Origin: Flexivirga endophytica
GTDB taxonomy: Bacteria > Actinomycetota > Actinomycetes > Actinomycetales > Dermatophilaceae
Direction of reading: 5' to 3'
Length of the DNA: 64,000 nucleotides
Assembly (NCBI RefSeq): GCF_014640635.1
Contig: NZ_BMHI01000003.1
Location: 186,001 to 250,000, forward strand
Both the position numbers and the translations under genes were made by a program. Numbering within the stretch: the stretch's first letter is position 1; every line of letters starts with the position of its first letter. Positions 7,309 to 25,086 of the stretch are shown here, piece after piece. The notes beneath the pieces are model-generated. The model did not search any database, was not told the origin of the DNA, and saw only the letters and a program-made list of their open reading frames with translations.

Positions 7309-8949
7309 TCAGCGGGTCACCACCGCACGCAGCTGCAGCATCGCGGCGAACCGGGCCTCCGAGTCCTCCAGATCGATCTCGCCGACCTCAGCGAGGCGTC
7401 GCAGGCGGTATCGGAAGGTGTTCGGGTGTACGTAGAGACTTGCGGCGGCGGCGACCGTGTCCCCGAAATGATCGAGCCACGCTCGCAGGGTCTGCACCAG
7501 ATCGGTGTTGTGGACGGCGTCATACCTGATCAGCCGCGCGACCGGCCCGGTCGGTTGGTCGCCGCGCGCGACGACGAGGTCGCGTAGCTCCAGCATCAAG
7601 GACTCCACGTGCACGTCCGCGAGTTGTGCGACCCGGGGACTTCCGCGTTCGCGCAGCACCCGCAGCACTCGATCCACCGCAACACGTGCACTGGCCAGAC
7701 CGGTGATGTCCTCGGCGACCGGACTGACCGCGATCAGCGCGTGATGCCCGCGGTCGCCGATCCGATCGAGGAAGTCGGTCGCGATGCTGACGGCATACCG
7801 CTCCCGCTGATGCGGCACGGGCACCAACCCGTAGACCACGTCGCTCAGCGCGGCCACCGCCGACGAAGGGTGCACCGTGCTCAGATGCATGGCGAACGCA
7901 TCGCTCAGTCTTTGTCGCTCGTTGACGAGTTCCGCCCCACTGACGACGGCCGGTGGCGTGTGCTGTCCGGCGATCGTCAACGCGAGGACGACCATCGGCT
8001 GATCGGCGACTCCGAGCCGGTCGAGCGCACCGCGCGCACCGACGCCGCCTTCGAGTGCGGTGCCGAGCAGGTCGGCTCGAAGCCGCCGCTCGACGTCGGA
8101 CCCCGCCCGCTGCTGGAGAAGGTGCAGGGCGACCAGCTTCGCAGCCTCCGAGAAGGCGCGAGAACGTTCCGGACTCAGCGGTTCGTGGACCGCTGCCCAC
8201 AACGAGCCGAGCAACTCGTCCCCGGCGCGGACGGCGATCGCGGCCCGCGCCATGGTCACCGCGGACGCGGGTAGCGACTCGATGTAGACCGGCTGGTCGG
8301 TGCGGTAGAGCTCGCGGAAGACGCCGCGTTCGGACAACAGGCGGGCATATCGTTCCGGCACCTGCCGGCCGAGAATGGTCTCGACCCGGGACTGGTCCGC
8401 CTCGTCCTGACGTCCGGAGAACGCCAGCACACGGGAGTTGCGGTCCTCGATCGTGATCGGTGCATCCAGCAACGCGGCGACGGCGTTGGCCACCGCGAAC
8501 AGGTCTCCGGCCGGCAGCCCGCCCAGGGTCTCGGTCTCGGACCCGCCGAGCTCTCCTTCGGCCAGGAGGGCACGCAGCAACGCGGTCAACTGGGTCCAGG
8601 AGGCTCCCCGGGTGAAGGCCAGCAACGCGACGCCGGTCTGTTCGACGGTGCGCAGCAACTGCGGATCCGGCGGGACCGGCGCCCGAACCACCAGTGCGGT
8701 CGCGCGTTGCTCGCCCAGCTCACCCAGCAACCGGATGATCCGTTCGCTGCCGGAGACGCCCACGCCCAGCACGAGTGCGTCCGGTCGCACCTCGGCCTCG
8801 TCGACCGGATCATGTATGACGACCGCGGAGATCGGCCCGGCGGCAGCCGCCGGCGACTCGGGGGCATGCACCAGCTCGAGCAGCGTGGCGCCCAGATCAT
8901 CGAGCAGCCGTGTCAGATCGGCTGCTGGTCGTCCGCTCATCGACACCAT
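7309..8949 (-). CDS. PucR-family transcriptional regulator (CdaR/GGDEF-like plus C-terminal HTH)
   Basis: 546 aa, or 543 if the second ATG at 8940 is used; that one has the better spacing from AAGAGATGG. A long N-terminal sensory region is followed by a GGDEF-like middle and a PucR C-terminal HTH (TVAAAASLYVHPNTFRYRLR). PucR-type proteins usually activate purine, amino-acid or peptide catabolic genes. It is the last gene of the minus-strand operon for peptide import and D-amino-acid conversion, 58 bp after the racemase gene, and is the best candidate regulator of the island. Ligand unknown. Confidence 0.9.
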   Translation of the reverse strand: MVSMSGRPAADLTRLLDDLGATLLELVHAPESPAAAAGPISAVVIHDPVDEAEVRPDALVLGVGVSGSERIIRLLGELGEQRATALVVRAPVPPDPQLLRTVEQTGVALLAFTRGASWTQLTALLRALLAEGELGGSETETLGGLPAGDLFAVANAVAALLDAPITIEDRNSRVLAFSGRQDEADQSRVETILGRQVPERYARLLSERGVFRELYRTDQPVYIESLPASAVTMARAAIAVRAGDELLGSLWAAVHEPLSPERSRAFSEAAKLVALHLLQQRAGSDVERRLRADLLGTALEGGVGARGALDRLGVADQPMVVLALTIAGQHTPPAVVSGAELVNERQRLSDAFAMHLSTVHPSSAVAALSDVVYGLVPVPHQRERYAVSIATDFLDRIGDRGHHALIAVSPVAEDITGLASARVAVDRVLRVLRERGSPRVAQLADVHVESLMLELRDLVVARGDQPTGPVARLIRYDAVHNTDLVQTLRAWLDHFGDTVAAAASLYVHPNTFRYRLRRLAEVGEIDLEDSEARFAAMLQLRAVVTR

Positions 8950-9007
8950 CTCTTGACGTTACAAGCTGCGATCGTCCCTCCACGGCGTTCAGGTGAAATT
9001 GCCTGCG

Positions 9008-10114
9008 CTACAGCGAAATCCATTCGGTGGACGTCGTGACCGCATCGAGTTGATCGGATAGCGGGGCGACGCCGAGGCCGGGCCCGGTCGGGACCGTGAG
9101 GTAGCCCGCGTCCAGCACGAACGGCTCGGTGATGTCGGTGCTGAAATAGCGGTCCGACGCCGACGTGTCGCCGGGCAGGGTGAAGCCGGGCAGCGCGGCC
9201 AGCGCGACGTTGGCCGCCCTGCCGATGCCGGTCTCCAGCATCCCGCCGCACCAGACCGCGATGCCGTGCGCCATACACACGTCGTGGATGCGTCGTGCCT
9301 CCAGATAGCCACCGACACGACCCGGCTTGATGTTGACGATCCGGCAGGCGCCCAAACTGATCGCGGCGGCGGCCGTTGCGGCGGAGGTGATCGACTCGTC
9401 CAGGCAGATCGGGGTGGTGACCAGCTTCGCCAACTGCGCGTGCCCGAGCACGTCCTCCTCGTCGAGTGGTTGCTCGATCAGCAGCAGATCGAAGGGATCC
9501 AGCCGGGCCAATTGCCCGGCGTCCGCCAGCGTGTATGCCGTGTTGGCATCGACCTGAAGCAGCAACTCGTCGCCGAAACGCTCACGGACGGCGCGGACCG
9601 GCTCGACGTCCCACCCCGGTTCGATCTTCAGCTTGATGCGCACATAGCCCGCATCGATGTATCCGGACACCGCGTCCAGCAGCTCCGGGACCGAATCCAT
9701 GATCCCGACCGACACACCGCAGGGCACGCTGTCGCGCACCGCACCGAGTTCGCGCGCCAGCGGCCGCCCCTCCGCCCGCAGCTCCGCGTCCAGCACCGCG
9801 GCCTCGAGCGCACACTTGGCCATCCGGTGGCCCTTGAAGCCGTGCAGCACGTGGCCGACCCGGTCGGCGGTCAACCGGTCCGCGTCTCCCAGCGCCGGGA
9901 TCAGGAAACGGCGCAGCACGTCTGCCGCTGCGTCGACATACTCCGGCGAGTAGAGCGGGTCACCCATCGCGACGCACTCACCCCAACCTTCGGCCTGGTC
10001 CGTGACCACGCGCACCAGCAGCACGTCGCGTTCGTGCTGCACCCCGAACGATGTCCGGAACGGCGCCACCAACGGCATACCGACGCGCCTGAGTTCGATC
10101 CCTGTCAGTTTCAT
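9008..10114 (-). CDS. N-acyl/N-succinylamino acid racemase (MenC-like, enolase superfamily)
   Basis: 368 aa from the ATG at 10114, preceded by AGGAGAAGG. Catalytic lysines K161/K163 (KLK) and K263 (NIKPGR) and metal ligands D189, E214 and D239 are present; these match the numbering I recall for the Amycolatopsis N-acylamino acid racemase. The family also contains o-succinylbenzoate synthase of menaquinone synthesis, and sequence alone does not separate them. Context does: no men genes are near, and the two genes upstream, with 4-bp overlaps, are a GNAT and an M20 hydrolase. I infer racemisation of N-succinyl-D-amino acids to the L form. Confidence 0.9.
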   Translation of the reverse strand: MKLTGIELRRVGMPLVAPFRTSFGVQHERDVLLVRVVTDQAEGWGECVAMGDPLYSPEYVDAAADVLRRFLIPALGDADRLTADRVGHVLHGFKGHRMAKCALEAAVLDAELRAEGRPLARELGAVRDSVPCGVSVGIMDSVPELLDAVSGYIDAGYVRIKLKIEPGWDVEPVRAVRERFGDELLLQVDANTAYTLADAGQLARLDPFDLLLIEQPLDEEDVLGHAQLAKLVTTPICLDESITSAATAAAAISLGACRIVNIKPGRVGGYLEARRIHDVCMAHGIAVWCGGMLETGIGRAANVALAALPGFTLPGDTSASDRYFSTDITEPFVLDAGYLTVPTGPGLGVAPLSDQLDAVTTSTEWISL

Positions 10115-11004
10115 GAATGTCCTTCTCCTCGTGACTGATTCGGGTGGACGGCATCGAGCACGTACCAGCCGTCCCGGGTGAAGGCCCGCGCCCGGGCGCC
10201 GCCGTTCAGCAGCTCGCCGAGGACCTTGCGGACCTCGTGCCGCCACACGCTGGCCAGCTCCGGATCGGTGCCCCGCAGGGCCTCCACATCGGGTGGCACG
10301 GCGATCAGGAGGGTTGGGGCATCGGTGGATCCGATGACCGGTTCACCGGCCGGCCCACGTCCCAGCGCGACCGCGACGTCGTCCCGATGCCGGAGTTCTG
10401 CGGCATACGTCGGCTGCCGCTGCATGGAGCACGCCTCGCTCACGCCGGGATCCTCCAGGTCCCAGCACAACAGCAGGCGGTCGGTGTCATCGCCGGTGTT
10501 GATGCGATCCCGCATCCCGCCGTAGAAGTTCGGCAGGTACTCCGTCGGCCGACCGCCGAGCTTGACCAGGTTGAAGTAGGCGTTGCGCGCGATCAGCGGG
10601 TCGAACGTCCACTCGATGACACCGATCCCGCGTTCCAACGCCCACGCCCGCTGGTGCAGCTTCAGTGCGTACCCGACGCCGCGGCGTGCGGCCTGCGGCA
10701 GCACGCCGGCGATGTGGCTGTGCAAGGTCCGGTCCGACGGGGGTGCGAAGAACCCCACGCAGGCTCCGACCATCGTGTCCGCGACGTAGGCGCCGGCCAC
10801 GTAGTTGCCGGCCTTCGACAACGCGCGCAGCATCTCGGTGCCGATCGGCGCGTTGGGTTCGGAGTGCCAGATCCGCTCGTACAGGTCCTCCACACCGGCC
10901 AGCTCATCCAGGTCGGTCACCGTGCGGACATTGACTGCCGCGGCGTTCGCGGCCGCGGCCGCTTGCTCCTGGGCCGAGGTGATCGGCGACTCCAGCCGGG
11001 TCAT
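10111..11004 (-). CDS. COG3375-like GNAT acyltransferase, candidate D-amino acid N-succinyltransferase
   Basis: 297 aa. An N-terminal GNAT fold with the acyl-CoA loop (VLPQAARRGVGYALKLHQR) and WTFDPLIARNAYFNLVKLGG, the hallmark of the COG3375 group, is followed by an ~80-residue extension. In Geobacillus a GNAT beside an N-succinylamino acid racemase makes N-succinyl-D-amino acids from succinyl-CoA. The same arrangement here makes that the leading hypothesis. Overlaps the racemase gene by 4 bp and the M20 gene by 4 bp, so the three should be translated in fixed ratio. Donor and acceptor are inferred. Confidence 0.82.
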   Translation of the reverse strand: MTRLESPITSAQEQAAAAANAAAVNVRTVTDLDELAGVEDLYERIWHSEPNAPIGTEMLRALSKAGNYVAGAYVADTMVGACVGFFAPPSDRTLHSHIAGVLPQAARRGVGYALKLHQRAWALERGIGVIEWTFDPLIARNAYFNLVKLGGRPTEYLPNFYGGMRDRINTGDDTDRLLLCWDLEDPGVSEACSMQRQPTYAAELRHRDDVAVALGRGPAGEPVIGSTDAPTLLIAVPPDVEALRGTDPELASVWRHEVRKVLGELLNGGARARAFTRDGWYVLDAVHPNQSRGEGHS

Positions 11005-12143
11005 GGTCGGCCTGCCGGGGTCCCGGAGCCGGTGAGCAGGTCCTGCAACAGCGCGGCGAGCAACGCGGTGCGTTCGGGGAGTTCCGCGACCAGGACGTGC
11101 TCGTCGTCGGCATGGGCGCCGCCGCCGCTCGCGCCCATGCCGTCGAGCGTGGGTATGCCGATCCCGGCCGTGAAGTTGCCGTCTGAGCCCCCACCCACCG
11201 ACACCTGCCGAGGTTCCGGCAGGCGATGCGCCGCTGCCAGCCGACAGGCACGGTCGAACAGCTGCGCCGAGGAGGCGCGTTCCAACGGCGGCCGGTTCGG
11301 ACCACCGGTGATCGTCAACTGCGCCCCGGGCAGGTACGGCAGCAACGACCGGATGGCGGCATCGACGCGGTCCTGCTCGGCGATCGTGCGGACCCGGACG
11401 TCGACCGCGAACTGCCCGCGCGCGGGGACGGTGTTCGTGGTCGTACCCGCCTCCAGGACGGTGGGTGTCACGGTCGTACCAAGCTCCACTGCGCTCAATG
11501 CGGCCACCGAGGGCAGCTGATGGGCAAGTTCCAAGCTGGCGTTGACGCCCTTCTCCGGCTCCAGTCCCGCGTGCGCCGCCAGACCGGTTGCCGCGACTCG
11601 ATACATGGAGACTCCTTTGCGCTCGGTCTTGAATGCGCCTGCAGCTCCTGCAGATTCGAGGACCAGCGTCGCTTCGCAGCCGCGCGCTTCGTCCTCGATG
11701 AGCTGCCGGGAGCTCGGGGCACCGATCTCCTCGTCACCGGTCACCAGCACGGTGATGCCGTCGGTGTCCGACAACGCAGCGATCGCGTGGAAGGCCATCA
11801 CGGTGCCCGTCTTCATGTCGAAGCAACCCGGCCCGCGCAGGACGGTGTCCGTGGCCTCCCACGGGTGGGAGCGCAGACTTCCGATCGGCCAGACGGTGTC
11901 GTGGTGACACAGGATCAACACCCGCCTCGGGCCGGAGCCGAGCCGCCACCGCAGATGGGTGCGCCCGTCCAGCACGATCCGCTCCGGCTCGCGGCCCAGG
12001 TATCGGGCGCCGAGGCCGGCGGTCAGCTCGGCGCTCGCCGCGACCGCGGCCAGGTCGTCCGACGGTGACTCGCAGATCACCAGGGTCCGGATGTCGTCGA
12101 CGACCTGTGGCAGCGCATCGCGGAATCGCTCCAGCAGGGCCAC
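11001..12143 (-). CDS. M20-family metallohydrolase (CPG2-like), candidate N-succinyl-L-amino acid hydrolase
   Basis: 380 aa. Dinuclear zinc motifs are complete: HHDTVW (His, Asp), GCFDMKTG (bridging Asp), GDEEIGA (catalytic and metal Glu) and GGGAHADDE (His). Start is the GTG at 12143, 1 bp after the stop of the upstream peptidase gene, so translation is probably coupled. It resembles glutamate carboxypeptidase/aminoacylases. Beside the racemase and the GNAT it would free the L-amino acid from its N-succinyl form, completing D-to-L conversion. A dipeptidase or carboxypeptidase role on imported peptides is the alternative. Confidence 0.88.
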   Translation of the reverse strand: MALLERFRDALPQVVDDIRTLVICESPSDDLAAVAASAELTAGLGARYLGREPERIVLDGRTHLRWRLGSGPRRVLILCHHDTVWPIGSLRSHPWEATDTVLRGPGCFDMKTGTVMAFHAIAALSDTDGITVLVTGDEEIGAPSSRQLIEDEARGCEATLVLESAGAAGAFKTERKGVSMYRVAATGLAAHAGLEPEKGVNASLELAHQLPSVAALSAVELGTTVTPTVLEAGTTTNTVPARGQFAVDVRVRTIAEQDRVDAAIRSLLPYLPGAQLTITGGPNRPPLERASSAQLFDRACRLAAAHRLPEPRQVSVGGGSDGNFTAGIGIPTLDGMGASGGGAHADDEHVLVAELPERTALLAALLQDLLTGSGTPAGRP

Positions 12144-12144
12144 G

Positions 12145-15100
12145 TCACGACACCTTCGGGGTGGCGCGCGCCCCGAAGTGGATGTAGCGCCGTTCTCCGT
12201 CGGGCCGATAGAACGTCACCGGGGACCACGTCTCGACGCCCGGCAACCGCATGACGAAAAGGTTCTCCGCGACCGGTATGAGCGCTGCTTCCTCGGTCGG
12301 GTCGTCCATCGTCGCGGCGACCGGTCCGGTCACCGTGACGCGCAGCCTCGGCCCCTCGTCGTCGGCTGACACCTCGACCGTCATGGACTCGCGCCGGTAC
12401 GTGCCCAGCCAGGGTGCGATGTCCACCTCGACCGGCTGGGCCGGCGGCTCCAGCGAATGCTGCATTTCGACCTCCGCCATCTCGGCGAAGATCTCGCGAT
12501 AGAGGTCCTCGTAGAGGTCCCGGGTGTTGCCGCCGTTGGTGAGCAGCGCGACGGCGAGGTTCTGCTCCGGCAGCACCCGCAGGAACGCCGACTGCCCGAT
12601 CGTGTTGCCGTCGTGTCCGAAGAGCCGGTGCCCGGACCAGCCGAAGCGGATCCAGCCCAGGCCCCAGGAGTCACCCAACGAGTGTTTGTCCGGCAGCTCC
12701 GCATGCTGCTCCTGCATCAGTGCGACCGTCTCCGGTCGCAGCACCTGCGTGCCGTCCGGTGCCAGACCGCCGGTCAGGTGCATCCGCGCGAAGGCGAGCA
12801 CGTCGCCGACCGTGGAGGTGACCAGTCCGGCAGGTCCCATCGAACGAGGCAGGAAGGACACCGGCGCCACCTTCGGTGGTTCGTCGCCCTCGCCGACATG
12901 CCCGACCGCAGCGCCATACAACAGGACCTCCTCCGGCAGCGTGACCGTCCGCTGCAGTCCGAGCGGGGTGAACAGTCGCTCGCGGATCGCCGCGTCCCAG
13001 GTCTTGTCGGTGACCCGCTCGATCAGCAGGCCGATCATCGAGAAACCGGCGTTGCAGTAGGACCAGGTCAGTCCGAGCGGGTGGTTCTGGGCCTCCCCGC
13101 TGAGCAGTGCGACGTACTTCTGCAGGCAGTCGTCTCCCCGACCCGTGTCTGTGAAGACGTCGCCGTCGATGCCGCTGGTGTGCGTGAGCAGGTGCCGCAG
13201 GGTGACCTTCTTGGTCACATCCGGATCGGCGAGTTCCAGCTCGGGCAGGATCTCCTGCACCGGAGCGTCCAGCGACAGCTTCCCCTCGTCGACCAGTTGC
13301 ATGGCCACGGTCGCCGTCCACACCTTGGTGATCGAACCGATCTGGAAGAGCGACTCGGGGCGCACTTCGGCTCCGGTGTCCACGTTGAGTACGCCGGTGG
13401 CTGCCTCGACCAACTCATCGTCCGCCTCGCCGAGCCGGAGGATGCCCAGCTGCGCGCCAGGCACCTTGTGCCGGCGGGACAGCTCGGCGACTCGACGCTG
13501 CCAGTGGGCCTGGTCGAGCCTCGGGCGCTTCGATCCCGTTCCGCCATACTGCTCGAGCCAGTCGATGATGCGCTGGTTGAAGTCGAGGCGGTGCGAGGGA
13601 CGACCGTTGACGATGAACAGGTGCGAACCTCCGGGATAGAGCGCCAACCTGGTCGGCACGCCTTGCTCGCGCAGCGCCGAGAACCATTGCTGTGCCTGGC
13701 CGGTCGGGCACCGGACGTCCGCCGCGCCCTGCACCACGAGGGTCGGTGTCGTCACCTCGGTCACCTTGCTGAAGGGCGACATCGCGTCCAGCTGCGCCGA
13801 GGGCTGTCGGGTCGGCGCATCAAGCTCGTATGCCGCCAGGAGGTGCCCGGCGTCCGACGTGCCCGCGAGGCTGTTCAGGTCGGCGCACACGCCACCGGCC
13901 ACCGCCGCTGCGAACCGCTGGTCGCGGCTGGTGAGGTAACAGGTCATGAAGCCGCCGTAGCTGTACCCGCTCACCGCCAGGTGCTCCCGGTCGGCCACGC
14001 CCTCGGCGACGAGCGCGTCCAACGGCTCGAGGAAGTCCGCAGCGTCCCCGGTGCCCCAGGCGCCGATGGTCGCGGTGAGGAAGTCGGCGCCATAGCCGTC
14101 GCTCGCGCGCGGGTTGACCAGGAGCACGGCCCAGCCGCGCGCGACCAGCTCCTGGTGGTAGAGATGCACGTCGTCGGCCGCACCGTTCCAGGCGTTGTGC
14201 GGGCCTCCGTGCACATCCAGCAGTAGCGGCCGTGGGCCGGAGCTCGCGGGGTCACGCATGAGCCAGCCCTGGACGACGGTGCCGTCGGAGATGGTGAAGT
14301 CGCGCGACTCACGGGCGAACCACTCCACGTCAGCCAGCTGCGCGCCGTGCTCGGTGCGGACCGTCTGCTCGCCGGTCCGCAGGTCGACCGTGACGATCTC
14401 GCCGAGCGACGTGCCGGTGCTGAGCACCACCGCCACGGTGTCGCCGGCCGCAGATGCTCCGGAGACCACTTGGTCGTCGCCGCCGAGCACGAGCTGAGGT
14501 TCACCGGAGTCGATCCCGGTCCGGTAGAGGTGGGTGCAGCCTCGGTCGCGCACGCAGAAGAGGACCTCACGGCCGTCGGCGATCAGCTGTGGCGCGGCAC
14601 CCGGGTATGCCGGGCCACCGGCCATCACATTGCGATCCAGCGGTCCGGCCAGATCGATGAGTTCGGTCGCCGGCACACTCTGCGCCCCGGTCGCGGGCAG
14701 CCGGAACAGACCTGCCTGACCCGTCGGCCCGGTGCCGCTGCCGATCACGAGGAGCTCACGGCCGTCGCCGGTCCAGGTGGCGAGTCCGGCCACGCCGTCG
14801 GCGAAGCCGATCAGCTCCGGGCGTGACCAGCTGCCGTTCACGTCGACCTGGTGCACGGGTATGACGAAGTTCAGGTCGGCATCTCCCGCCATACCTGCGA
14901 CGAATGCGAGGTGACTGCCGTCCGGTGACCAATTCGGTTCTGCTGCATGCCAATTGCCTTCCGTGACCTGGCGGCAGGACTTGTCCGAGACGTCCACCAC
15001 GTGGAGGTGGCTGCGCATCGCACGCAGATAGCCGGCGCCGTCGGCCTGGTAGTCGAGGCGGTCGGTGACGATGGGCGTGTTCGAGGTGTCACTGCCGTCC

Positions 15101-15498
15101 GCCGCGGGGGCCGTGTCGACCGGTGCGGCGAAGGCGATGTGACTGCCGTCCGGGCTCCACGCAGGCTCCCCCGCTCCGAGCGGCAGGTCGGTGAGCTGGG
15201 TGGCCTCGCCACCGTTCGCGGGCAGCAGCCAGACCTGTGCCGGGCCGTCCGCTGCGCGCAGGAAGGCCAGCCGTGAACCGTCCGGCGACCAGACCGGTGT
15301 GCTGTCCGCCAGGCCCTGCGTCAGCGGTGCCGGACCGGACCCGTCGGTGCGCACCTGCCACAGGCTCGTCACGGGCTGGTCGGCCTCCACGTCCTGGGTC
15401 CGCAGCACATACGCGATGCGGCTCCCGTCCGGGGACAGCGCGGGTTGCTCCGGAACGGCGATCTTCGCGAGATCGGTCACGCGCAGGCGTCGGGTCAT
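12145..15498 (-). CDS. Two-domain serine hydrolase: S9 prolyl-oligopeptidase-like domain fused to an S12 beta-lactamase-like domain
   Basis: 1117 aa from the ATG at 15498, which overlaps the oppF stop by 4 bp. Residues 1-400 form a WD40-like propeller (repeated WSPDGS); about 400-655 form the S9 alpha/beta hydrolase with GYSYGGF (Ser513), an Asp in AADVRCP and a His in GGSHLF. After a short linker near 656-665, an S12/class C-like domain follows with SITK (Ser722, Lys725), YCN (Tyr814, Asn816) and HDG (His962), then a C-terminal lipocalin-like tail. No signal peptide: it should act on imported peptides. The S12 half is a paralogue of the stand-alone gene at 22802. Known families, but the fusion is unusual. 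Confidence 0.93.
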   Translation of the reverse strand: MTRRLRVTDLAKIAVPEQPALSPDGSRIAYVLRTQDVEADQPVTSLWQVRTDGSGPAPLTQGLADSTPVWSPDGSRLAFLRAADGPAQVWLLPANGGEATQLTDLPLGAGEPAWSPDGSHIAFAAPVDTAPAADGSDTSNTPIVTDRLDYQADGAGYLRAMRSHLHVVDVSDKSCRQVTEGNWHAAEPNWSPDGSHLAFVAGMAGDADLNFVIPVHQVDVNGSWSRPELIGFADGVAGLATWTGDGRELLVIGSGTGPTGQAGLFRLPATGAQSVPATELIDLAGPLDRNVMAGGPAYPGAAPQLIADGREVLFCVRDRGCTHLYRTGIDSGEPQLVLGGDDQVVSGASAAGDTVAVVLSTGTSLGEIVTVDLRTGEQTVRTEHGAQLADVEWFARESRDFTISDGTVVQGWLMRDPASSGPRPLLLDVHGGPHNAWNGAADDVHLYHQELVARGWAVLLVNPRASDGYGADFLTATIGAWGTGDAADFLEPLDALVAEGVADREHLAVSGYSYGGFMTCYLTSRDQRFAAAVAGGVCADLNSLAGTSDAGHLLAAYELDAPTRQPSAQLDAMSPFSKVTEVTTPTLVVQGAADVRCPTGQAQQWFSALREQGVPTRLALYPGGSHLFIVNGRPSHRLDFNQRIIDWLEQYGGTGSKRPRLDQAHWQRRVAELSRRHKVPGAQLGILRLGEADDELVEAATGVLNVDTGAEVRPESLFQIGSITKVWTATVAMQLVDEGKLSLDAPVQEILPELELADPDVTKKVTLRHLLTHTSGIDGDVFTDTGRGDDCLQKYVALLSGEAQNHPLGLTWSYCNAGFSMIGLLIERVTDKTWDAAIRERLFTPLGLQRTVTLPEEVLLYGAAVGHVGEGDEPPKVAPVSFLPRSMGPAGLVTSTVGDVLAFARMHLTGGLAPDGTQVLRPETVALMQEQHAELPDKHSLGDSWGLGWIRFGWSGHRLFGHDGNTIGQSAFLRVLPEQNLAVALLTNGGNTRDLYEDLYREIFAEMAEVEMQHSLEPPAQPVEVDIAPWLGTYRRESMTVEVSADDEGPRLRVTVTGPVAATMDDPTEEAALIPVAENLFVMRLPGVETWSPVTFYRPDGERRYIHFGARATPKVS

Positions 15499-18219: not shown

Positions 18220-19221
18220 TCAGTTCTCCCTGATCGTCGAGCGCGGGTCGAGCAGTGCAAGGGCGACGTCGACCGCGAGATTGATGAGCAGGACGAAGAC
18301 GCCATACACCAACACGATCGCCTGGACCACCGGGTAGTCCTTGCCCTGTATGGAGGACACGATGGTGCTGCCGAGGCCGGGCCAGGCGAAGACGTTCTCG
18401 ACCAGCACGGTCCCGGCGATCAGCCCACTGAGCAGGAGCCCGCTCAGGGTGAGCGTCGCGGTCAACGCGTTCGGCAGCGCGTGCTTGAGGTAGATCGCCA
18501 CCGCCGGCAGCCGCTTGGCCCGCGCCGTGCGGATGTAGTCGGCCTGCAGCACCGCGAGCATCTCCACGCGCAGGATCCGGGCGAGGACGAGGCCCGGTCC
18601 GACGGCGAGCGCGACGACCGGCAGGACGTAGGAGTCCAGCCCCGATTTCCCGGCGACCGGGAACATGTGCAGATTCACGCCGAAGATCCAGACCAGGATG
18701 ACGCACACGACGAAGTCGGGTATGGCACCGACGACGACGCTGACGGTCGTGAAGCTCAGCTCGGTGCGCTGTGCCCGCCCGCCACGGGTGACGACACCCA
18801 TCAGCGCACCCAACGGTATGGCGATCAGCAGCGCGAGCACGAATGCCGACACCGCGAGGGCGAGAGTTGCGGGCAGCCGCTGGGAGATGACCTGCGAGAC
18901 CGGCAGCTGAGAGGACATCGAGATGCCGAAATCTCCGGTGGCGAGATCCTGCAGATAGTGCCAATACTGCACGAGCAGAGGGTCATTCAGCCCCAGGGCT
19001 TCGCGCCGAGCGGCAACGAGGGACTGCGGTGCGGTCAGCCCGAGCGAGGCACGGACCGGGTCACCGGGGACCAGGTGGATCATCAGGAACGAGGCGGTCA
19101 CCAGCGCCCAGAGCGAGATGAGCAGTTGTCCGGTACGGCGGACGGCGAAGCGCACCCAGTGGTTGTCCCACACGCCGGCGGCCAGGGACGGCGCCGGTTC
19201 TGCGGATGAGGTCGTTGTCAC
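18220..19221 (-). CDS. oppB: Oligopeptide/dipeptide ABC transporter permease (OppB/DppB type)
   Basis: 333 aa with six membrane segments. The start is a GTG at 19221; the only nearby ribosome-binding-like GAGG overlaps the stop of a 26-codon leader ORF ending at 19231, so translation may depend on that leader. FLMIHLVPGDPVRASLG near the N-terminus and the EAA loop YIRTARAKRLPAVAIYLKHA are typical. First full-length gene of the operon oppB-oppCD-oppF-S9/S12-M20-GNAT-racemase-pucR. Confidence 0.93.
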   Translation of the reverse strand: MTTTSSAEPAPSLAAGVWDNHWVRFAVRRTGQLLISLWALVTASFLMIHLVPGDPVRASLGLTAPQSLVAARREALGLNDPLLVQYWHYLQDLATGDFGISMSSQLPVSQVISQRLPATLALAVSAFVLALLIAIPLGALMGVVTRGGRAQRTELSFTTVSVVVGAIPDFVVCVILVWIFGVNLHMFPVAGKSGLDSYVLPVVALAVGPGLVLARILRVEMLAVLQADYIRTARAKRLPAVAIYLKHALPNALTATLTLSGLLLSGLIAGTVLVENVFAWPGLGSTIVSSIQGKDYPVVQAIVLVYGVFVLLINLAVDVALALLDPRSTIREN

Positions 19222-19230: not shown

Positions 19231-19311
19231 TCAGCTGATCACGGTGCCGGTTGCGCAGCCGGCGGCGAGTAGGCCGGCACATCTGCTGCGACTGGGTACT
19301 GACGTGCGCAT
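19231..19311 (-). CDS. 26-codon leader ORF or truncated lipoprotein signal peptide
   Basis: ATG at 19311 has an excellent ribosome binding site (GAGGAG, 4-5 nt spacing). The product MRTSVPSRSRCAGLLAAGCA..TGTVIS has a basic N-terminus, a short hydrophobic stretch and Cys residues. It resembles the start of the oppA lipoprotein at 22580 (MRRPTAHRRRNLGLLAGGCA). It ends 9 bp before oppB, whose own ribosome binding site is weak. It could be a coupling or regulatory leader, or the remnant of a second binding-protein gene. No homologue is recognised. Confidence 0.45.
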   Translation of the reverse strand: MRTSVPSRSRCAGLLAAGCATGTVIS

Positions 19312-19375
19312 AGCGCTCCTCGTCGTGGATTGAGGCTGGTGATCGAACAGCCTGCCCGCCGCCATGCGCCGCCGG

Positions 19376-19393
19376 TTCGTCGTCCTCGACGAA
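19376..19393. promoter_or_regulatory. Palindromic operator candidate, site 1 (oppB leader / D-aminoacylase divergent region)
   Basis: TTCGTCG-TCCT-CGACGAA, 7-bp perfect arms, lies in the 177-bp gap between the divergent leader/oppB and D-aminoacylase genes. The same palindrome with longer arms is at 22670-22691 in the other divergent region of the island. CAGCCTGCCCGC precedes both sites by a similar distance, and a CTTGT element follows 10-14 bp after both. Candidate target of the PucR protein at 7309. Confidence 0.5.
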
Positions 19394-19488
19394 ATGCACC
19401 CACCCGTCTTGTCCGGGAAGACAGACCGCCGCGGTCGCCGAGTGTCTTGACTGGTGCAGGTGATCACCTCGACGAACGGAACCAAATC

Positions 19489-20961
19489 ATGATCGTGTTG
19501 CGCGGCGGTCGAGTGATCGATCCGGGCTCCGGCACGGACCGCGTCGCCGACGTGCTGGTCAACGGGGTTACCGTGCACGCGGTCGGCACCGATCTCGCCA
19601 TACCCGCTGGTGCAGACGTCGTCGACGTGACGGGACTGATCGTGGGTCCCGGGTTCGTCGATCTGCACAGTCACGTCCACTCGATAGCCGGACAGCGGCT
19701 GCAGGCGATGGACGGCGTGACCACGACGCTCGACCTCGAGGCCGGCCTCATGCCCATCGAGCGCGCCTACGCGGACGCAGCCGCGGACGGCCGGCCGCTG
19801 AACTACGGGTTCAGCGCTTCGTGGGGTTCCGCGCGCGCTCAGGTGTTGCTGGGTCAGCAACCACAGGCGAGTATGGCGGCCGGGCTGGCGAACCTCGGCG
19901 ATCCCGGCTGGCAACGCTCCTCGAGCCCAACGGAACTCGCCGCCTGGCTGCGCCTGTTGGAAGGCGAGCTGGGCGCGGGAGCGCTCGGGATCGGCGTGCT
20001 CATGGGTTATGCGCCGCGCAGCGATCCGGACGAGTTCCTCGCCGTCGCCCGGTTGGCCGCCTCGGTCGGTGTCCCGGTCTATTCGCACGTCCGCGAGCTG
20101 ATCGAGGCCGACCCGACGACGCCGATCGACGGCTCCGAGGAACTTGTCATCGCCGCGGCCGAGACCGGCGCGCGGATGCACCACTGCCACGTGAACAGCA
20201 CCTCGCGCCGGCACATCGACCGGGTGCTGGGACTGCTCGACCGATCTCGAGCAGAGGGTTCGACCGTCACGGTGGAGGCGTATCCGTACGGCGCCGGGTC
20301 GACCGGTGTCGGAGCGTTCTTCCTTGCTCCGGATCGCTTGCCGCACTGGGGAATTCGATCGTCCAACATCGTCATGGTGGAGAGCGGTGAGCGGATCGCT
20401 ACGGCCACCAGGCTCGCCGAGCTCCGCGCCGCCGATCCGGGTGCCGAGTGCATCGTGGAGTTCCTGGACGACAACGACGCCGCGGACCGTGCACTCCTGC
20501 ACCGCGCGATGGCGTTCCCGGACTCGATCGTCGCCAGCGACGCGATGCAGGTGGTGTGGCCGGACGGCTCCCGGGACACCCGTCAGTGGCCGTTGCCACC
20601 CGGTGGTCGGACCCATCCGCGCACCGCAGGCACCTTTGCCCGCTCGGTACGACGCATGGTTCACGACACCGCGCAGTGGACCTGGTCGGAGGCGTTCCGC
20701 CGCTGCTCCTATCTGCCGGCGCGCATCCTCGACGACATTGCGCCGGCTTCCCGTGGCAAGGGTCGCCTCGGTGCCGGCGGCGACGCGGACCTGGTGGTTC
20801 TGGACCCGGAGGGCTTCACCGACCGGGCCACCTACACCGATCCGACCCGCCCGTCGAGCGGCGTGCGCCACCTCATGGTGAACGGCGAGTTCGTCGTCCG
20901 ACACGGTGAGCTGCTCATCGACGCCTACCCCGGCCGTGGCCTGCGGGGTCTGCTCGCCTGA
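19489..20961 (+). CDS. N-acyl-D-amino-acid deacylase (D-aminoacylase family amidohydrolase)
   Basis: 490 aa from the ATG at 19489; the longer open frame from 19330 crosses the promoter region. The N-terminal amidohydrolase barrel entry is GFVDLHSHVH (HxH metal ligands); VEAYPYGAGST and the C-terminal LGAGGDADLVVLD are typical of D-aminoacylases. The family hydrolyses N-acyl-D-amino acids, and a few members act on D-peptides. No signal peptide, so it is cytoplasmic. Divergent from the importer operon and convergent with oppA (9 bp apart). Exact acyl specificity unknown. Confidence 0.87.
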   Translation: MIVLRGGRVIDPGSGTDRVADVLVNGVTVHAVGTDLAIPAGADVVDVTGLIVGPGFVDLHSHVHSIAGQRLQAMDGVTTTLDLEAGLMPIERAYADAAADGRPLNYGFSASWGSARAQVLLGQQPQASMAAGLANLGDPGWQRSSSPTELAAWLRLLEGELGAGALGIGVLMGYAPRSDPDEFLAVARLAASVGVPVYSHVRELIEADPTTPIDGSEELVIAAAETGARMHHCHVNSTSRRHIDRVLGLLDRSRAEGSTVTVEAYPYGAGSTGVGAFFLAPDRLPHWGIRSSNIVMVESGERIATATRLAELRAADPGAECIVEFLDDNDAADRALLHRAMAFPDSIVASDAMQVVWPDGSRDTRQWPLPPGGRTHPRTAGTFARSVRRMVHDTAQWTWSEAFRRCSYLPARILDDIAPASRGKGRLGAGGDADLVVLDPEGFTDRATYTDPTRPSSGVRHLMVNGEFVVRHGELLIDAYPGRGLRGLLA

Positions 20962-20969
20962 GTGAAAAG

Positions 20970-22580
20970 TCAGGACACCATCCGGATGCTGGTGGGCTGC
21001 AGCACTCCGATGAGCTCGAAGGTGGCGCCCTTGCCGAAGGTGAGCCGCTTCTGGTTCGCCCACGGGATGACGTCCGCGGCCTTCACCAGACTGCTCTCGG
21101 CGGAGAGCCAGTGCTTGCACCCGGCGGCACCGGACATGCTCTGTGCCTTGGCCACCTCGGCACGGTAGGTCGCGTTGTCGATACCGGCGAAGTTGTTGCC
21201 TTTGGGCGCGGACGGCCCGGACATGAAGCCGATCAGCTGGTCGGGCGAGTTGACGTTCAGCGGGACCCAACCGATGTCCCAGTTGCCGGTGCTGAAGATG
21301 GTGGACAGCAGGGTCGTGGTCTCCTGTCCCTTCATACTCACCTTCACCCCGAGCTTCTTCCACTGGGCTGCGGTGAGTTCGGCCGCCGAGGACCCTGCCG
21401 TTCCGAACGTGGTGCTGTAGAGGAACCGCACCGACAGCTGCTTGCCGCCCTTGCGGCGATAGCCGTCCGAGCCGGCGACCCATCCGTCGGCTTCGAGGAG
21501 CGACTTCGCCTTCGCCAGGTCGAACTTCGGCAGTGCTGCGCTGACCGAGTTGCCACGGCACGCGACCGGTGGTGCGACCGCGAAGCTGGTCGGGCCGGAA
21601 CCCCGCCCCGAGGTGAGGACCTTCTGCAGTTGCTTGTTGTCGGTTGCCATCGAAAGCGCCTGACGCACTTTGGGATCCGACGTCGGACTGCTTGCGGCGT
21701 GGTTGTACCACGTCTCCCCGATGATGGTCGCGGTCGAGACCGAGTAGAGCTTGGCGGCCTGGAGTCGCGTGATGTCAGGTCCGATGAACGTGCCTGCATT
21801 CAACTGGCCGGACAGCATCAGGTTGGCGGCGGTCGTCTCGTTGGTGATGACCTTCAGGTCGATCTTCGCGGGCATACCCGATGTCGCGGTTTTCGCACCG
21901 GCAGGACCCCAGGTGTATCCGGAACGCTTGCTGAAGACGTAGCTGCTGTTGGGTTGGGCCCGGTCGAGTTGATAGGGCCCGGTGCCGTCGGTGGACTTGG
22001 CGAGCGATTTCCGGTTGGCCATGCCCTTGGCACAGACCATGGGCACCGAGGCCAGACCGTTGAGGATGAACGGCGCCGGTCCCGGCAATGTGATGGTCAC
22101 GGTGCTGCCGGCACTCTTGGCGGTGGCTCCGGCGGGCAGGAACGCGCCGACCAGTGGGCTCTTGTTCTTGGGGTTGCCGACGTAGTTGATGTTGTCGGCG
22201 GCCTGGGCCGCTGTGAAGGCCGATCCGTCGGAGCAGGTGATCCCGGAATTCAGGGTGAGGCTGACGGTTCTACCGCTGACCTTCCACTTGCTGGCGAGCT
22301 GCGGTTGGATCCGCCCCTTCGCGCTGGTGCTCACCAGCGAGTCGTAGGCAAGTGCGGCGATCTGGAGCACGTTGTTCGCCGCCGAGCCCTGCGGATCGAG
22401 ATTCCCCGGATCGGAGTTCAGCGCCATCGAGAAGGTGGCGCCGTCGACGACTTTGCCACTCTTTCCGGCGTTTTCGCCGCTGCCGGAGCTCGAAGAGCAG
22501 CCGGCGATGGCCACGGTGACGGCGCAACCGCCGGCGAGCAGCCCGAGGTTCCTGCGACGGTGAGCGGTGGGACGGCGCAT
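20970..22580 (-). CDS. oppA: Peptide ABC transporter substrate-binding lipoprotein (OppA/DppA family)
   Basis: 536 aa. Signal peptide with lipobox AIAGC (Cys28), a Ser/Gly tether, then an SBP_bac_5 domain (FSMALNSDPGNLDPQGSA, LASKWKVSG). Ribosome binding site CCAGGAG precedes the ATG at 22580. It supplies the peptide-binding partner missing from the oppB-oppCD-oppF operon 1.7 kb away, from which the D-aminoacylase gene separates it. It is divergent from the S12 hydrolase gene at 22802 across a 221-bp region holding the second palindromic site. Confidence 0.93.
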   Translation of the reverse strand: MRRPTAHRRRNLGLLAGGCAVTVAIAGCSSSSGSGENAGKSGKVVDGATFSMALNSDPGNLDPQGSAANNVLQIAALAYDSLVSTSAKGRIQPQLASKWKVSGRTVSLTLNSGITCSDGSAFTAAQAADNINYVGNPKNKSPLVGAFLPAGATAKSAGSTVTITLPGPAPFILNGLASVPMVCAKGMANRKSLAKSTDGTGPYQLDRAQPNSSYVFSKRSGYTWGPAGAKTATSGMPAKIDLKVITNETTAANLMLSGQLNAGTFIGPDITRLQAAKLYSVSTATIIGETWYNHAASSPTSDPKVRQALSMATDNKQLQKVLTSGRGSGPTSFAVAPPVACRGNSVSAALPKFDLAKAKSLLEADGWVAGSDGYRRKGGKQLSVRFLYSTTFGTAGSSAAELTAAQWKKLGVKVSMKGQETTTLLSTIFSTGNWDIGWVPLNVNSPDQLIGFMSGPSAPKGNNFAGIDNATYRAEVAKAQSMSGAAGCKHWLSAESSLVKAADVIPWANQKRLTFGKGATFELIGVLQPTSIRMVS

Positions 22581-22669
22581 GCGGCACTCCTGGATGGTGG
22601 GGACGGTCTGAGATGGACTACGGCGAAGGGTGCATCGGTCGATCAGCCTGCCCGCACGCCGCCGGGCAT

Positions 22670-22691
22670 GGTTCGTCGTCGGCGACGAACC
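22670..22691. promoter_or_regulatory. Palindromic operator candidate, site 2 (oppA / S12 hydrolase divergent region)
   Basis: GGTTCGTCG-TCGG-CGACGAACC, 9-bp perfect arms, sits midway in the 221-bp divergent gap. It shares its core and flanking blocks with 19376-19393. A degenerate second copy (TTGTTGTC-CGCG-GCGACGAG) follows at 22703-22722, and a further inverted repeat ACCGAC/GTCGGT at 22724-22742. Likely a shared regulator site for the island. Confidence 0.55.
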
Positions 22692-22801
22692 AGCGGTCGG
22701 CTTGTTGTCCGCGGCGACGAGACACCGACTGCCGAGGTCGGTTTCACTGAGGAAACCGGCCGGCGCACCGACGCAGCCGATCCCTGTGTGAAAGGAAGAA
22801 C

Positions 22802-24190
22802 ATGTCGACTGTCGAAGAGGTGGGCGCCTGGATCGAGGCGGAGCTGCCCGGCATGCTCGAGGAGGCGCAGATCCCTGCGGCGTCCGTGGCGCTCCTGGCC
22901 GATGGCCACATCGTCAGCCGCTCCGCCGGGCTGCTGAACACAGCCACCGGCGTGGAAGCGACCGATGACTCAGTGTTCCAGATCGGTTCGATCACCAAGG
23001 TCTTCACAGCGACCCTGGTGATGCAGTTGGTGGACGAGGGGCTCGTGGATCTCGACCGCCCGTTGCGGCAGTACGTGCCCGACTTCACGATCGCTGACGA
23101 GGCAGCACGTGACAGCCTCACGGTCCGTCAGTTGCTCAGTCACACAGCGGGTTTCGAGGGTGACTACTTCGACGACACCGGTATGGGCGACGACTGTGTC
23201 GAGAAGTTCGTGCCGGTGCTGGCGAAGGCACCGCAGTTGTTCCAGCCGGGAGAACGCTTCTCCTACAACAACGCCGGTTTCATCATGCTCGGCCGCCTGG
23301 TGGAGGTGCTCCGCGATGCGCCATACAACACAGTGCTGCGGGAGCGCATCGCCGAACCACTCGGTATGCCGCACTTCGCGACCGACGCCTATGAGGCCAT
23401 CCGGTTCCGCGCCGCGATCGGCCACGTGCCAGGTCCCGACGCTGATTTCGTGCCCGCACCGACCTGGAACCTGGCGCGCTCGAACAGTCCTGCGGGTTCG
23501 ATGCTTTCGATGACCGCCGGCGACCTGCTCACGTTCGCCGTGATGCATCTGGACGGCGGTGTGGCCAAGGACGGCACCCGAGTGCTCTCCGAGGAGTCGG
23601 CGACCGCGATGCAGCAACCCCAGGTGCACCTGCCGGACCTCGGGCTGTTGGGCACCGACTGGGGGCTCGGCTGGGAGTACAACTCGTGGGACGGCGGCCC
23701 GGTGATCGGGCACGACGGCAACACCGTCGGCCAGGCTTCCTTCCTGCGCATCGTCCCCGGCAAGAACATCGCCGTGGCGATGCTCACCAACGGCGGCAAC
23801 CCGTTCACGCTGTATGACGCGATCATGCCGCGCGTCCTCCACGAGCTCGCCGATGTCACGGTGCCGCCGAACCCGGCACCCACGGACGCAGCCGGTCCGG
23901 CGCCGGCGGCGCACCGGATCGAGGGCACCTACAGTTCGTCGGTGTCGGACTCCACCGTGACGGTGGACGAGCAGGGCCGCATCTGGCTGGAGCAGGTGAT
24001 GAAGGGCATCTTCGCCGACATGGCGCCCGACCCCGAACCGGTCGAGTTGCTGCCGTGGCGTGCAGACACCTTGGTGCCACGGACGCCCACCATGGGCATG
24101 TACATGCCGCATGCGTTCGTCGGCGACGACGGAGAGGGTCGAGCGCTCTACTTGCACACGGGGCGCGCTGACCGTCGCGTCTCTGCCTGA
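22802..24190 (+). CDS. S12-family serine hydrolase (beta-lactamase / D-aminopeptidase-like)
   Basis: 462 aa, ATG at 22802 with AAAGGAAG upstream. SITK (Ser63, Lys66), YNN (Tyr155, Asn157) and HDG (His304) form the S12 active site, followed by a ~100-residue C-terminal beta domain. There is no signal peptide, unlike secreted beta-lactamases and DD-peptidases, so it should act on imported substrates such as D-residue-containing peptides. It is close in sequence to the C-terminal half of the 12145-15498 fusion (shared IGSITKV, DWGLGW or SWGLGW, GHDGNT). Confidence 0.9.
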   Translation: MSTVEEVGAWIEAELPGMLEEAQIPAASVALLADGHIVSRSAGLLNTATGVEATDDSVFQIGSITKVFTATLVMQLVDEGLVDLDRPLRQYVPDFTIADEAARDSLTVRQLLSHTAGFEGDYFDDTGMGDDCVEKFVPVLAKAPQLFQPGERFSYNNAGFIMLGRLVEVLRDAPYNTVLRERIAEPLGMPHFATDAYEAIRFRAAIGHVPGPDADFVPAPTWNLARSNSPAGSMLSMTAGDLLTFAVMHLDGGVAKDGTRVLSEESATAMQQPQVHLPDLGLLGTDWGLGWEYNSWDGGPVIGHDGNTVGQASFLRIVPGKNIAVAMLTNGGNPFTLYDAIMPRVLHELADVTVPPNPAPTDAAGPAPAAHRIEGTYSSSVSDSTVTVDEQGRIWLEQVMKGIFADMAPDPEPVELLPWRADTLVPRTPTMGMYMPHAFVGDDGEGRALYLHTGRADRRVSA

Positions 24191-24192
24191 GC

Positions 24193-25086
24193 GTGGCGAC
24201 CGCCTTGGAGAGCGATCTGCAGGAGATCTTCGCCCGCGCCGGTGCCACCGGGTTCGTGCACGCCAAACAAGTCGGCGTCGATGACGGCCCAGAGGTCTCA
24301 CTGAACGCAGACTCTCCGGTGGTGCTCGCTTCGGTCTTCAAGATCCTGGTGGCGACCGCCTTCGCCGAGGAGGTCGCGGCCGGGCGGCTGGATCCCGTCG
24401 CGAGGGCAACAGTCACGGCTCGCTATCGCATCGGTGGCATCGGCACCGCCGGTTTCGCCGACGACACCACCGCGACGCTGCGTGACCTTGCGTTGAACAT
24501 GATGAGTTTCAGCGACAACGCAGCCACCGACGTGATCTATCACCGGCTCGGGCATGAGCGGATCGCTGCCGTGGCAACCGAACTCGGCCTCAGCGGTACC
24601 GCACTCATCGGTTGCTGCGAGGACCTTTTCGCGACGGTCTTCGAGGACCTGGGCATCGCCGAGGATGACGACCCCGATGCGACCCTGGCGAATGCCGACG
24701 CCGAGGCCGTGTGGGGTTTGCGTGCCCTGGATCCGGTGCGGACATCGCACTCGACCCCGCAGGAGGTGACCGCGCTGCTTGATGCGATCTGGACGGATCG
24801 GGCCGCGTCGCCCGCTGCCTGCGCGATGGTCCGTGAGCTGATGGGCAAACAGATCTGGCCGCATCGACTCTCGAGCGGCTTCGACGAGGACGGCATCACG
24901 ATCGCTGCGAAGACCGGCACCTTGCCGAGCATCCGCAACGAAGCGGGAGTGGTGACCTATCCGGACGGTGCGTCCTACGCAGTGGCCGTTTTCACCCGTG
25001 TGCACGATCTCGGGCAGCGTCGCCCCCGTGTGGATGCATCCATCGGCAAGGCCGCGCGCGCCGCGGTCGACCATCTGCGGTCCTGA
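24193..25086 (+). CDS. Class A beta-lactamase-like serine hydrolase, cytoplasmic
   Basis: 297 aa, GTG start 2 bp after the upstream stop, so probably co-translated with the S12 gene. SVFK (Ser47, Lys50), SDN (Ser107-Asn109) and KTG (Lys240-Gly242) are the three class A/PBP motifs. No signal peptide is present and the omega-loop glutamate is not obvious, so true beta-lactamase activity is doubtful. I infer a peptidase or amidase role with its neighbours. Third beta-lactamase-fold enzyme of the island. Confidence 0.85.
   Translation: MATALESDLQEIFARAGATGFVHAKQVGVDDGPEVSLNADSPVVLASVFKILVATAFAEEVAAGRLDPVARATVTARYRIGGIGTAGFADDTTATLRDLALNMMSFSDNAATDVIYHRLGHERIAAVATELGLSGTALIGCCEDLFATVFEDLGIAEDDDPDATLANADAEAVWGLRALDPVRTSHSTPQEVTALLDAIWTDRAASPAACAMVRELMGKQIWPHRLSSGFDEDGITIAAKTGTLPSIRNEAGVVTYPDGASYAVAVFTRVHDLGQRRPRVDASIGKAARAAVDHLRS

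Follow-up and report, generated by a model that had tools for sequence, protein, structure and literature searches.

What would a bacterium do with a racemase of N-acylated amino acids that shares one operon with a peptide importer, two kinds of peptidase, an acyltransferase and a deacylase? The question is raised by a 64,000-nucleotide stretch of the 4.72-Mb genome of Flexivirga endophytica (contig C3:186001-250000, hereafter the window), in which eight minus-strand genes of this kind, ending with a PucR-family regulator, form the core of a discrete island. The sequence evidence suggests that the island is a regulated catabolic operon for peptides containing D-amino acids, a reading to which we give a probability of roughly three in four; the substrates, the acyl donor, the stereospecificity and direction of the conversion and the binding of PucR are all deduced from the genes and their context. 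Its centre would be the conversion of D- to L-amino acids by the racemase together with an acyltransferase of the GNAT family and a hydrolase of the M20 family, whose genes accompany that of the racemase in most of the related loci described below.

Gene organization of the island

A sequence-only reading of the window had described twelve genes, their families and their tight overlaps. The list of open reading frames and the profile searches agree with that description, all twelve frames being intact, and a gene of the TauE/SafE family, unlisted there, is added here. The features are as follows.

7309..8949, minus strand: PucR-family regulator, final gene of the operon (PF13556 HTH_30, 72 bits)
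9008..10114, minus strand: N-succinylamino acid racemase of the N-succinylamino acid racemase/o-succinylbenzoate synthase (NSAR/OSBS) subfamily (ATG at 10114; TIGR01928; likeness to 1sja)
10111..11004, minus strand: GNAT N-acyltransferase, predicted to succinylate D-amino acids (profile match, structure model and conserved motif)
11001..12143, minus strand: M20 protein resembling aminoacylases and carboxypeptidase G2, predicted N-succinyl-L-amino acid hydrolase (PF01546, 81 bits)
12145..15498, minus strand: fusion of an S9 peptidase with an S12 hydrolase of the beta-lactamase/D-peptidase fold, 1117 residues (ATG at 15498; PF00326 and PF00144)
15495..16268, minus strand: OppF-type ATPase (PF00005, PF08352)
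16261..18216, minus strand: OppC permease-OppD ATPase fusion in one open reading frame (PF00528, PF00005 and PF08352)
18220..19221, minus strand: OppB permease (PF00528, PF19300)
19376..19393, no strand: inverted repeat TTCGTCGTCCTCGACGAA, candidate operator in the interval between oppB and the D-aminoacylase gene (exact TTCGTCG-N4-CGACGAA)
19489..20961, plus strand: amidohydrolase resembling D-aminoacylase and N-acyl-D-glutamate deacylase (NF006560, 638 bits against a cut-off of 340)
20970..22580, minus strand: OppA substrate-binding lipoprotein (PF00496, 183 bits; AIAGC lipobox found by inspection)
22672..22689, no strand: inverted repeat TTCGTCGTCGGCGACGAA, inside GGTTCGTCG-N4-CGACGAACC, candidate operator in the interval between oppA and the separate S12 gene (second exact copy in the genome)
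22802..24190, plus strand: S12 serine hydrolase, predicted D-stereospecific peptidase or amidase (PF00144, 234 bits)
24193..25086, plus strand: hydrolase of the class A beta-lactamase fold (PF13354, 162 bits)
25223..25894, plus strand: TauE/SafE-family transporter (PF01925, 93.9 bits), within the island boundaries

The eight operon genes follow one another in the order oppB, oppCD, oppF, S9-S12, M20, GNAT, racemase and pucR, and are separated, in the same direction, by a 3-base gap, an 8-base overlap, a 4-base overlap, a 1-base gap, two 4-base overlaps and a 58-base gap. The complete domain set of an Opp/Dpp importer is encoded in the window (PF00496 once; PF00528, PF00005 and PF08352 twice each). 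Among the soluble proteins of the island, inspection of the N-termini revealed an export signal in OppA only, and no signal peptide was seen in this way on the S9-S12 fusion, the separate S12 hydrolase or the class-A-like hydrolase.

Conservation of the island in actinomycetes

A prediction made beforehand was that the gene set would co-occur beyond this genome; it recurs in 80 loci of relatives, in a sample of 197 genomes and in plasmid records. The loci were the best 80 of at least 558 confirmed relatives found in a scan with the racemase only, and their genes were counted with bit thresholds that we set ourselves. The counts are lower bounds, since 16 of these loci span less than 21 kb, in most cases cut off by a contig end. 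The loci belong to the Pseudonocardiaceae, Micromonosporaceae, Nocardioidaceae, Kribbellaceae, Thermomonosporaceae, Streptosporangiaceae, Streptomycetaceae, Geodermatophilaceae, Microbacteriaceae and Nocardiaceae.

The genes that accompany the racemase most steadily are GNAT and M20, present in 78 and 71 of the 80 loci, respectively, and together in 69. They are followed by pucR (66), S9 and oppF (62 each), the S12 half of the fusion (58), oppD (57), oppC and oppA (54 each) and oppB (53). All nine domains tested occur together in 34 loci, and the commonest order, oppA-oppB-oppCD-oppF-S9S12-M20-GNAT-racemase-pucR, is found in 32; where pucR is present, it mostly adjoins the racemase gene. The two fusions are conserved as well: S9 and S12 are joined in all 55 loci that have both halves, and oppC and oppD in 50 of 52. 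The separate S12 hydrolase (12 loci), the D-aminoacylase and the class-A-like hydrolase (8 each) are far less frequent, and the first two are ruled out as core parts by these numbers. Loci L040 and L086 combine M20, racemase, pucR, a class-A-like hydrolase, a distantly related opp set and the palindrome, without GNAT.

The class-wide sample of 197 genomes, in which racemases were accepted at 55% identity or more and up to 10 racemase, 12 GNAT and 3 fusion candidates were scored per genome, contained 54 racemases in 50 genomes and GNAT in 51 genomes. Both proteins were found in 48 genomes, GNAT only in 3, the racemase only in 2 and neither in 144. GNAT lies within 3 kb of 41 of the 54 racemases, on the same strand for 40, and within 3 kb of none of 15 racemase-like matches at 40-48% identity. 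Full-length S9-S12 fusions were all located within 12 kb of GNAT (17 of 17) and, with one exception, within 12 kb of the racemase (16 of 17). Chance adjacency of the island genes is ruled out by their recurrence in the 80 loci and by this co-inheritance.

The GNAT genes that do not stand beside a scored racemase were also considered, and in 9 of the 18 such regions read M20 adjoins GNAT. One of the regions, L136, does carry a racemase adjoining GNAT (G186:C433); since the class search missed this copy, the number of cases classed as not adjacent is overstated. The racemase is found in the same stretch as GNAT in L141, L143, L148 and L149, and GNAT stands alone in L150-L152. Among nine racemase regions away from GNAT, M20 is present in L159, L160 and L162. 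The genomes to which L155-L158 belong carry an M20-GNAT pair elsewhere (L137-L140).

Occurrence beyond the actinomycetes

A tblastn search with GNAT against 72,556 plasmid records matched 44 records, 19 of them from Deinococcus. In all eight regions chosen for reading (L167-L174), from Deinococcus, Priestia, Lysinibacillus, Sulfitobacter, Stenotrophomonas, Arthrobacter and Streptomyces, the racemase adjoins GNAT or lies within 1 kb of it; the Priestia and Lysinibacillus matches (E 1e-23 and 2e-20) have approximately 29% identity. The neighbours vary. A Streptomyces plasmid carries the entire operon; the Arthrobacter region has S12 hydrolases, a dipeptidase, a PucR-like regulator and M20; and that of Deinococcus ficus combines racemase and GNAT with peptide ABC transporter genes, two serine (S12) hydrolases, an amidohydrolase and a membrane dipeptidase. 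In Lysinibacillus, M20, GNAT and racemase follow one another beside a peptide transporter, the arrangement reported for Geobacillus. In D. radiodurans, Priestia and Sulfitobacter the racemase-GNAT pair stands amid other neighbours. That the pair keeps recurring alongside peptide importers and D-type hydrolases is the strongest reason to regard peptides with D-residues as the substrate class.

The racemase beside GNAT is annotated as menC or o-succinylbenzoate synthase in all eight records read. For such GNAT-linked racemases this label is probably a systematic misannotation, which suggests that the menC labels of these genes in public records are often wrong. In L169 and L171, a record named Stenotrophomonas rhizophila (CP031730.1) and a Lysinibacillus fusiformis plasmid share one gene layout, including comX, with nearly identical coordinates; the species name of the former may be mistaken, or its sample may have been a mixture.

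The racemase and the menC question

The closest solved relative of the window racemase is the Amycolatopsis enzyme 1sja (E 7e-182, 75.2% identity over 367 residues). Residues K161, K163, D189, E214, D239, K263 and R266 are identical in the two proteins, and we take them to be the catalytic lysines, the acidic metal ligands and the Arg 266 of the NSAR/OSBS subfamily. The protein also scores above the cut-off of TIGR01928 (306.8 against 200.65 bits).

Membership of this subfamily leaves two activities to choose from, and the sequence-only reading implies that the enzyme is not solely an OSBS. A separate menC is present at C6:41510-42490 (458 bits against a cut-off of 288), the window racemase reaching 64.7 bits in the same search, and menD is found on contig C6 too. 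Among 24 carriers hand-picked from the 80 loci, with all eight Amycolatopsis taken in, 23 likewise possess a separate menC above the cut-off, including every Amycolatopsis. The exception is Streptomyces toyocaensis (L034), with none over the cut-off; Streptomyces make menaquinone by the futalosine route. Neither this genome nor the 23 carriers are therefore short of OSBS, and the window racemase is rejected as the menaquinone OSBS of its genome. As far as sequence can tell, nothing contradicts this: an orthologue of NSAR/OSBS enzymes beside a separate menC supports, without proving, a duty other than pure OSBS.

The same argument extends to 1sja. Its relatives of 89-91% identity in Amycolatopsis (L060, L068, L069, L077 and L084) are all encoded in clusters with the order D-aminoacylase, M20, GNAT, racemase and pucR. 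Whereas PMC4215206 gives OSBS as the biological role of the Amycolatopsis racemase, this gene neighbourhood and the presence of a separate menC in each of the eight Amycolatopsis genomes suggest that it acts as a racemase in vivo. According to PMC8142540, kcat/Km is 42,000 M-1 s-1 for N-succinyl-S-phenylglycine (AmyNSAR) and 1,111 M-1 s-1 for N-acetyl-S-methionine with the Amycolatopsis enzyme; the higher value hints at succinyl as the preferred acyl group, bearing in mind that the amino acids compared differ.

Several of the class-sample genomes (for example G246:C67, G116:C1:827083 and G209:C4:2261913) also encode NSAR-like proteins of a second group, mostly 45-48% identical, of which none (0 of 15) lies within 3 kb of GNAT.

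The acyltransferase and the predicted deacylase

The GNAT protein scores 21.0 bits, slightly under the Pfam cut-off of 22, and its fold was confirmed by a structure model (mean predicted local distance difference test score, pLDDT, 92.4) and by Foldseek, whose matches are generic acetyltransferases. It consists of an ordinary GNAT domain and a C-terminal part of approximately 120 residues; R108-x-x-G111-x-A113, presumably the GNAT motif, is conserved across 42 sequences. The nearest solved structures of M20 are those of carboxypeptidase G2 (1cg2, E 6e-31). In Geobacillus, a racemase, a GNAT succinyltransferase and an M20 desuccinylase reportedly convert D- to L-amino acids irreversibly through N-succinyl intermediates. 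By analogy, the GNAT of the island is predicted to cap D-amino acids, with succinyl-CoA-derived succinyl the most likely group, and M20 is predicted to be an L-specific N-succinyl-amino acid hydrolase.

The same genome encodes a second GNAT, 43-44% identical to the first (G000:C7:28000-44000, L130), in a cluster with pucR, an S12 hydrolase and an opp transporter set and with neither racemase nor M20.

The S9-S12 fusion and the other hydrolases

Residues S513, D594 and H626 of the S9 half and S722, K725, Y814, N816, H962 and G964 of the S12 half (numbered from the ATG) are invariant in 36 fusions, and we take them to be the catalytic sets. By sequence and by fold, the S9 half is nearest to the S9 carboxypeptidases 8wt1 (Geobacillus) and 5yzm (Deinococcus), with which it aligns over their length (template modelling score 0.86-0.90, by target); in the island, the S9 protein is fused to an S12 hydrolase of 460 residues. 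The model of the fusion has a mean pLDDT of 83.4, falling below 50 at residues 778-817 (numbering of the model itself), beside the S12 site. Solved relatives of the S12 half include alkaline D-peptidase, D-Ala-D-Ala carboxypeptidase and a cyclase of the penicillin-binding protein type. Those of the separate S12 hydrolase include alkaline D-peptidase, D-amino acid amidase and the same type of cyclase, but also esterases and beta-lactamases; the top PDB match of both proteins, IS11, is not interpretable.

A candidate operator

The palindrome TTCGTCG-N4-CGACGAA lies in both divergent intergenic stretches of the island, at 19376-19393 between oppB and the D-aminoacylase gene and at 22672-22689 between oppA and the S12 gene, and nowhere else in the 4.72-Mb genome in this exact form. 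With up to two mismatches, the window holds 6 copies against 0.58 expected, the other four lying outside the two divergent promoters. A looser form, TTCGT-N8-ACGAA, is found at two more places in the genome, each within a long open reading frame. In the 80 loci (1,585,247 bases) this form occurs 29 times, and 23 of the copies are within 200 bases upstream of the starts of island genes, a space that makes up 7.7% of those bases; spacings of 6, 7, 9 and 10 give 0, 1, 0 and 0 copies. In 57 further loci the loose form occurs 4 times, 3 of the sites lying upstream of pucR, and the other spacings give 0, 1, 0 and 0 copies. Several loose sites have changed symmetrically (TTCGTCG..CGACGAA, TTCGTAG..CTACGAA and TTCGTCC..GGACGAA), which suggests the behaviour expected of a site for a dimer. 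The regulator that would act at the palindromes is most likely the operon's own PucR, to judge from linkage.

Proposed pathway and alternatives

We propose that OppA, OppB, OppCD and OppF would import short peptides, the L- and D-containing bonds of which would be digested jointly in the cytoplasm by the S9 and S12 halves of the fusion. The neighbouring S12, class-A-like and D-aminoacylase enzymes would broaden the substrate range, the last by releasing D-amino acids from N-acyl forms. GNAT would then acylate the freed D-amino acids, most likely with succinyl from succinyl-CoA, and the racemase would equilibrate the N-acyl-D and N-acyl-L forms; an L-specific M20 would deacylate the L form only and so draw the inversion one way. 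PucR, the most likely protein at both divergent-promoter palindromes, would couple oppA, the D-aminoacylase gene and the S12 pair to the operon. A scheme of import, cleavage and conversion had already been put forward in the sequence-only reading, and the gene set and its co-inheritance support it in part; the D-aminoacylase, the separate S12 hydrolase and the class-A-like hydrolase, which it included, turn out to be merely optional (8, 12 and 8 of the 80 loci).

Several observations weigh against this interpretation. The locus set, chosen by racemase score, over-represents close relatives. M20 is absent from nine of its loci (L017, L019, L020, L022, L027, L039, L054, L057 and L088) and GNAT from two (L040 and L086), and the Fisher p of 1e-39 for the co-occurrence of racemase and GNAT in the class sample ignores phylogeny. 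The racemases of L155-L158, 74-76% identical to that of the window, have no island gene nearby. No informative relative of GNAT was found in the PDB by sequence, and in the L130 cluster GNAT may serve another end; that cluster may draw on the island racemase in trans or reflect a separate function of GNAT. As to the operator, the 23 upstream loose sites are confined to 17 of the 80 loci, and some loose sites may fall within the preceding gene. The loose form was defined after part of the data had been seen, and only the 57 further loci are partly out of sample. Exact copies of the palindrome are present in 19 of 38 other genomes, inside the fetched locus in only three (L040, L080 and L086). 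Most loci show no site, the oppA promoter lying outside the available DNA in many.

The island could alternatively serve the salvage of N-acylated peptides and amino acids, the S9 peptidase freeing N-acyl amino acids that the racemase and M20, with the D-aminoacylase, would convert, and GNAT having a side role. Acylaminoacyl peptidases are among the relatives of S9, a D-aminoacylase is present in the window, and NSARs accept many N-acyl groups according to PMC7431475. We nevertheless consider this unlikely, for GNAT, an acyl-adding enzyme, accompanies the racemase more steadily than any other protein (78 of 80 loci; both in 48 of the 53 genomes with either) and stands beside it in other phyla too, while the nearest S9 folds are carboxypeptidases and the D-aminoacylase is found in just 8 of 80 loci.

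The clustering of several beta-lactamase-fold hydrolases with an importer, and the fact that many carriers belong to antibiotic-making genera, would fit a defence function, in which peptide antibiotics with D-residues or beta-lactams are inactivated and the recovery of amino acids is secondary. Such a role appears quite improbable. The proteins in question have no signal peptide by inspection and score far below the NCBIfam beta-lactamase cut-offs (class A, 72.7 against 200; class C, 72.7 for the separate S12 hydrolase and 86.7 against 415), and on these two grounds resistance beta-lactamases are ruled out; it would, moreover, be a strange design to take up a drug only to break it down with catabolic genes among which is an inversion route.

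Recycling of the cell-wall peptide L-Ala-D-Glu-meso-diaminopimelate-D-Ala is very improbable. Opp importers and hydrolases of the DD-peptidase fold are known in such routes, and the D-aminoacylase, whose best PDB matches are N-acyl-D-glutamate deacylase, the nearest, and D-aminoacylase, also matches PRK09061. Yet the racemase is far below the cut-offs for L-Ala-D/L-Glu epimerases (NF041118, 67 against 500 bits; PRK15129, 58 against 343), no NlpC/P60, LD-carboxypeptidase or anhydro-muropeptide family appears among the Pfam matches of the island genes, and the D-Glu-type deacylase is optional, being found in 8 of 80 loci. Cell-wall fragments, named as one example of a peptide source in the sequence-only reading, find nothing specific in their support.

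Production of D-amino acids, by racemase and D-aminoacylase run from L to D, is hardly credible: a racemase and a D-specific acylase are chemically capable of it (the amidohydrolase process in PMC7431475), but the constant hydrolase is M20 (71 of 80 loci) and not the D-aminoacylase (8 of 80), and an association with genes for peptide import and peptide cleavage speaks for catabolism.

Boundaries and origin of the island

In a genome of the same genus, G027, the DNA matching window positions 4133-7297 and that matching 26007-29861 lie only about 95 bases apart, and the GNAT match is absent. A finer alignment places the left edge directly after the stop codon of a PNPOx-type gene (7295) and the right edge at about 25901. 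The island, approximately 18.6 kb long (about 7300-25900), is thus cleanly missing from one same-genus genome, and was gained in F. endophytica or lost in G027 as a single piece. The TauE/SafE-type gene is counted in the island because homology to the empty site restarts only at about 25901.

The island ends showed neither mobile genes nor repeats, and the island has the same G+C content, 0.684, as the right flank. In a tree of 81 racemases, the window protein pairs with that of Kutzneria (Pseudonocardiaceae), its nearest relative there at 85% identity (support 100/99, bootstrap not settled), and GNAT is found at E <= 0.001 in 8 of 59 genomes of the family, one of them marginal (1e-3). The kinship with Kutzneria and this sparse distribution therefore favour gain here over loss in G027.

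Relation to known systems

The Geobacillus route uses the same three enzyme classes; a homologous GNAT was seen beside the racemase in the two Bacillota compared, Priestia and Lysinibacillus. What distinguishes the island is that, across many actinomycete families, the triad belongs to an operon that also encodes a peptide importer, an S9-S12 fusion and PucR and has promoter palindromes. Uptake of peptides by Dpp/Opp transporters and use of D,D-dipeptides are known from ddp-type systems, which likewise have a family 5 binding protein and Opp permease and ATPase genes beside D-type peptidases; the island differs by the oppC-oppD fusion and by the predicted entry of D-amino acids into N-acyl racemization.

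No description of a PucR-linked operon uniting these parts was recognised in open-access full text, subscription journals, which are said to hold most work on NSAR, lying outside that search. The available parts of PMC8142540, PMC7431475, PMC3359211, PMC4215206 and PMC5808125 do not describe it; PMC3359211, the sole match for PucR, D-amino acid, oligopeptide and racemase together, is in its available part a list of mutations in a Saccharopolyspora strain. The inversion chemistry is already known; no account of its use within a common, probably co-regulated operon for peptide import that includes an S9-S12 fusion was recognised in that open-access literature.

NSAR/OSBS enzymes serve as a standard illustration of catalytic promiscuity and of industrial application; the island offers a likely cellular job for a well-studied racemase. 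The gene neighbourhood of the racemase, its steady association with GNAT and the presence of a separate menC in eight Amycolatopsis genomes make the non-OSBS reading directly testable. The analysis further yields a candidate operator, a fusion that may be a dual-chirality peptidase and a GNAT with a candidate role in D-amino acid metabolism, as well as a possible way for soil actinomycetes to consume peptides with D-residues, including the antibiotics of their neighbours.

A bolder proposal, which we put forward tentatively and judge somewhat more likely to fail than to hold, is that the fusion is a dual-chirality peptidase. Its S9 site would take off L-residues and its S12 site would take off, or cleave at, D-residues, so that mixed-chirality non-ribosomal peptides, antibiotics included, would be consumed completely, and with GNAT, racemase and M20 it would constitute a dedicated, horizontally moving, co-regulated D-peptide pathway of actinomycetes. 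If this were true, the textbook account in which the Amycolatopsis racemase serves as an OSBS in vivo would be overturned.

Away from the island, positions 58001-60000 of the window show an AT skew of 0.324, unusual relative to the remaining window.

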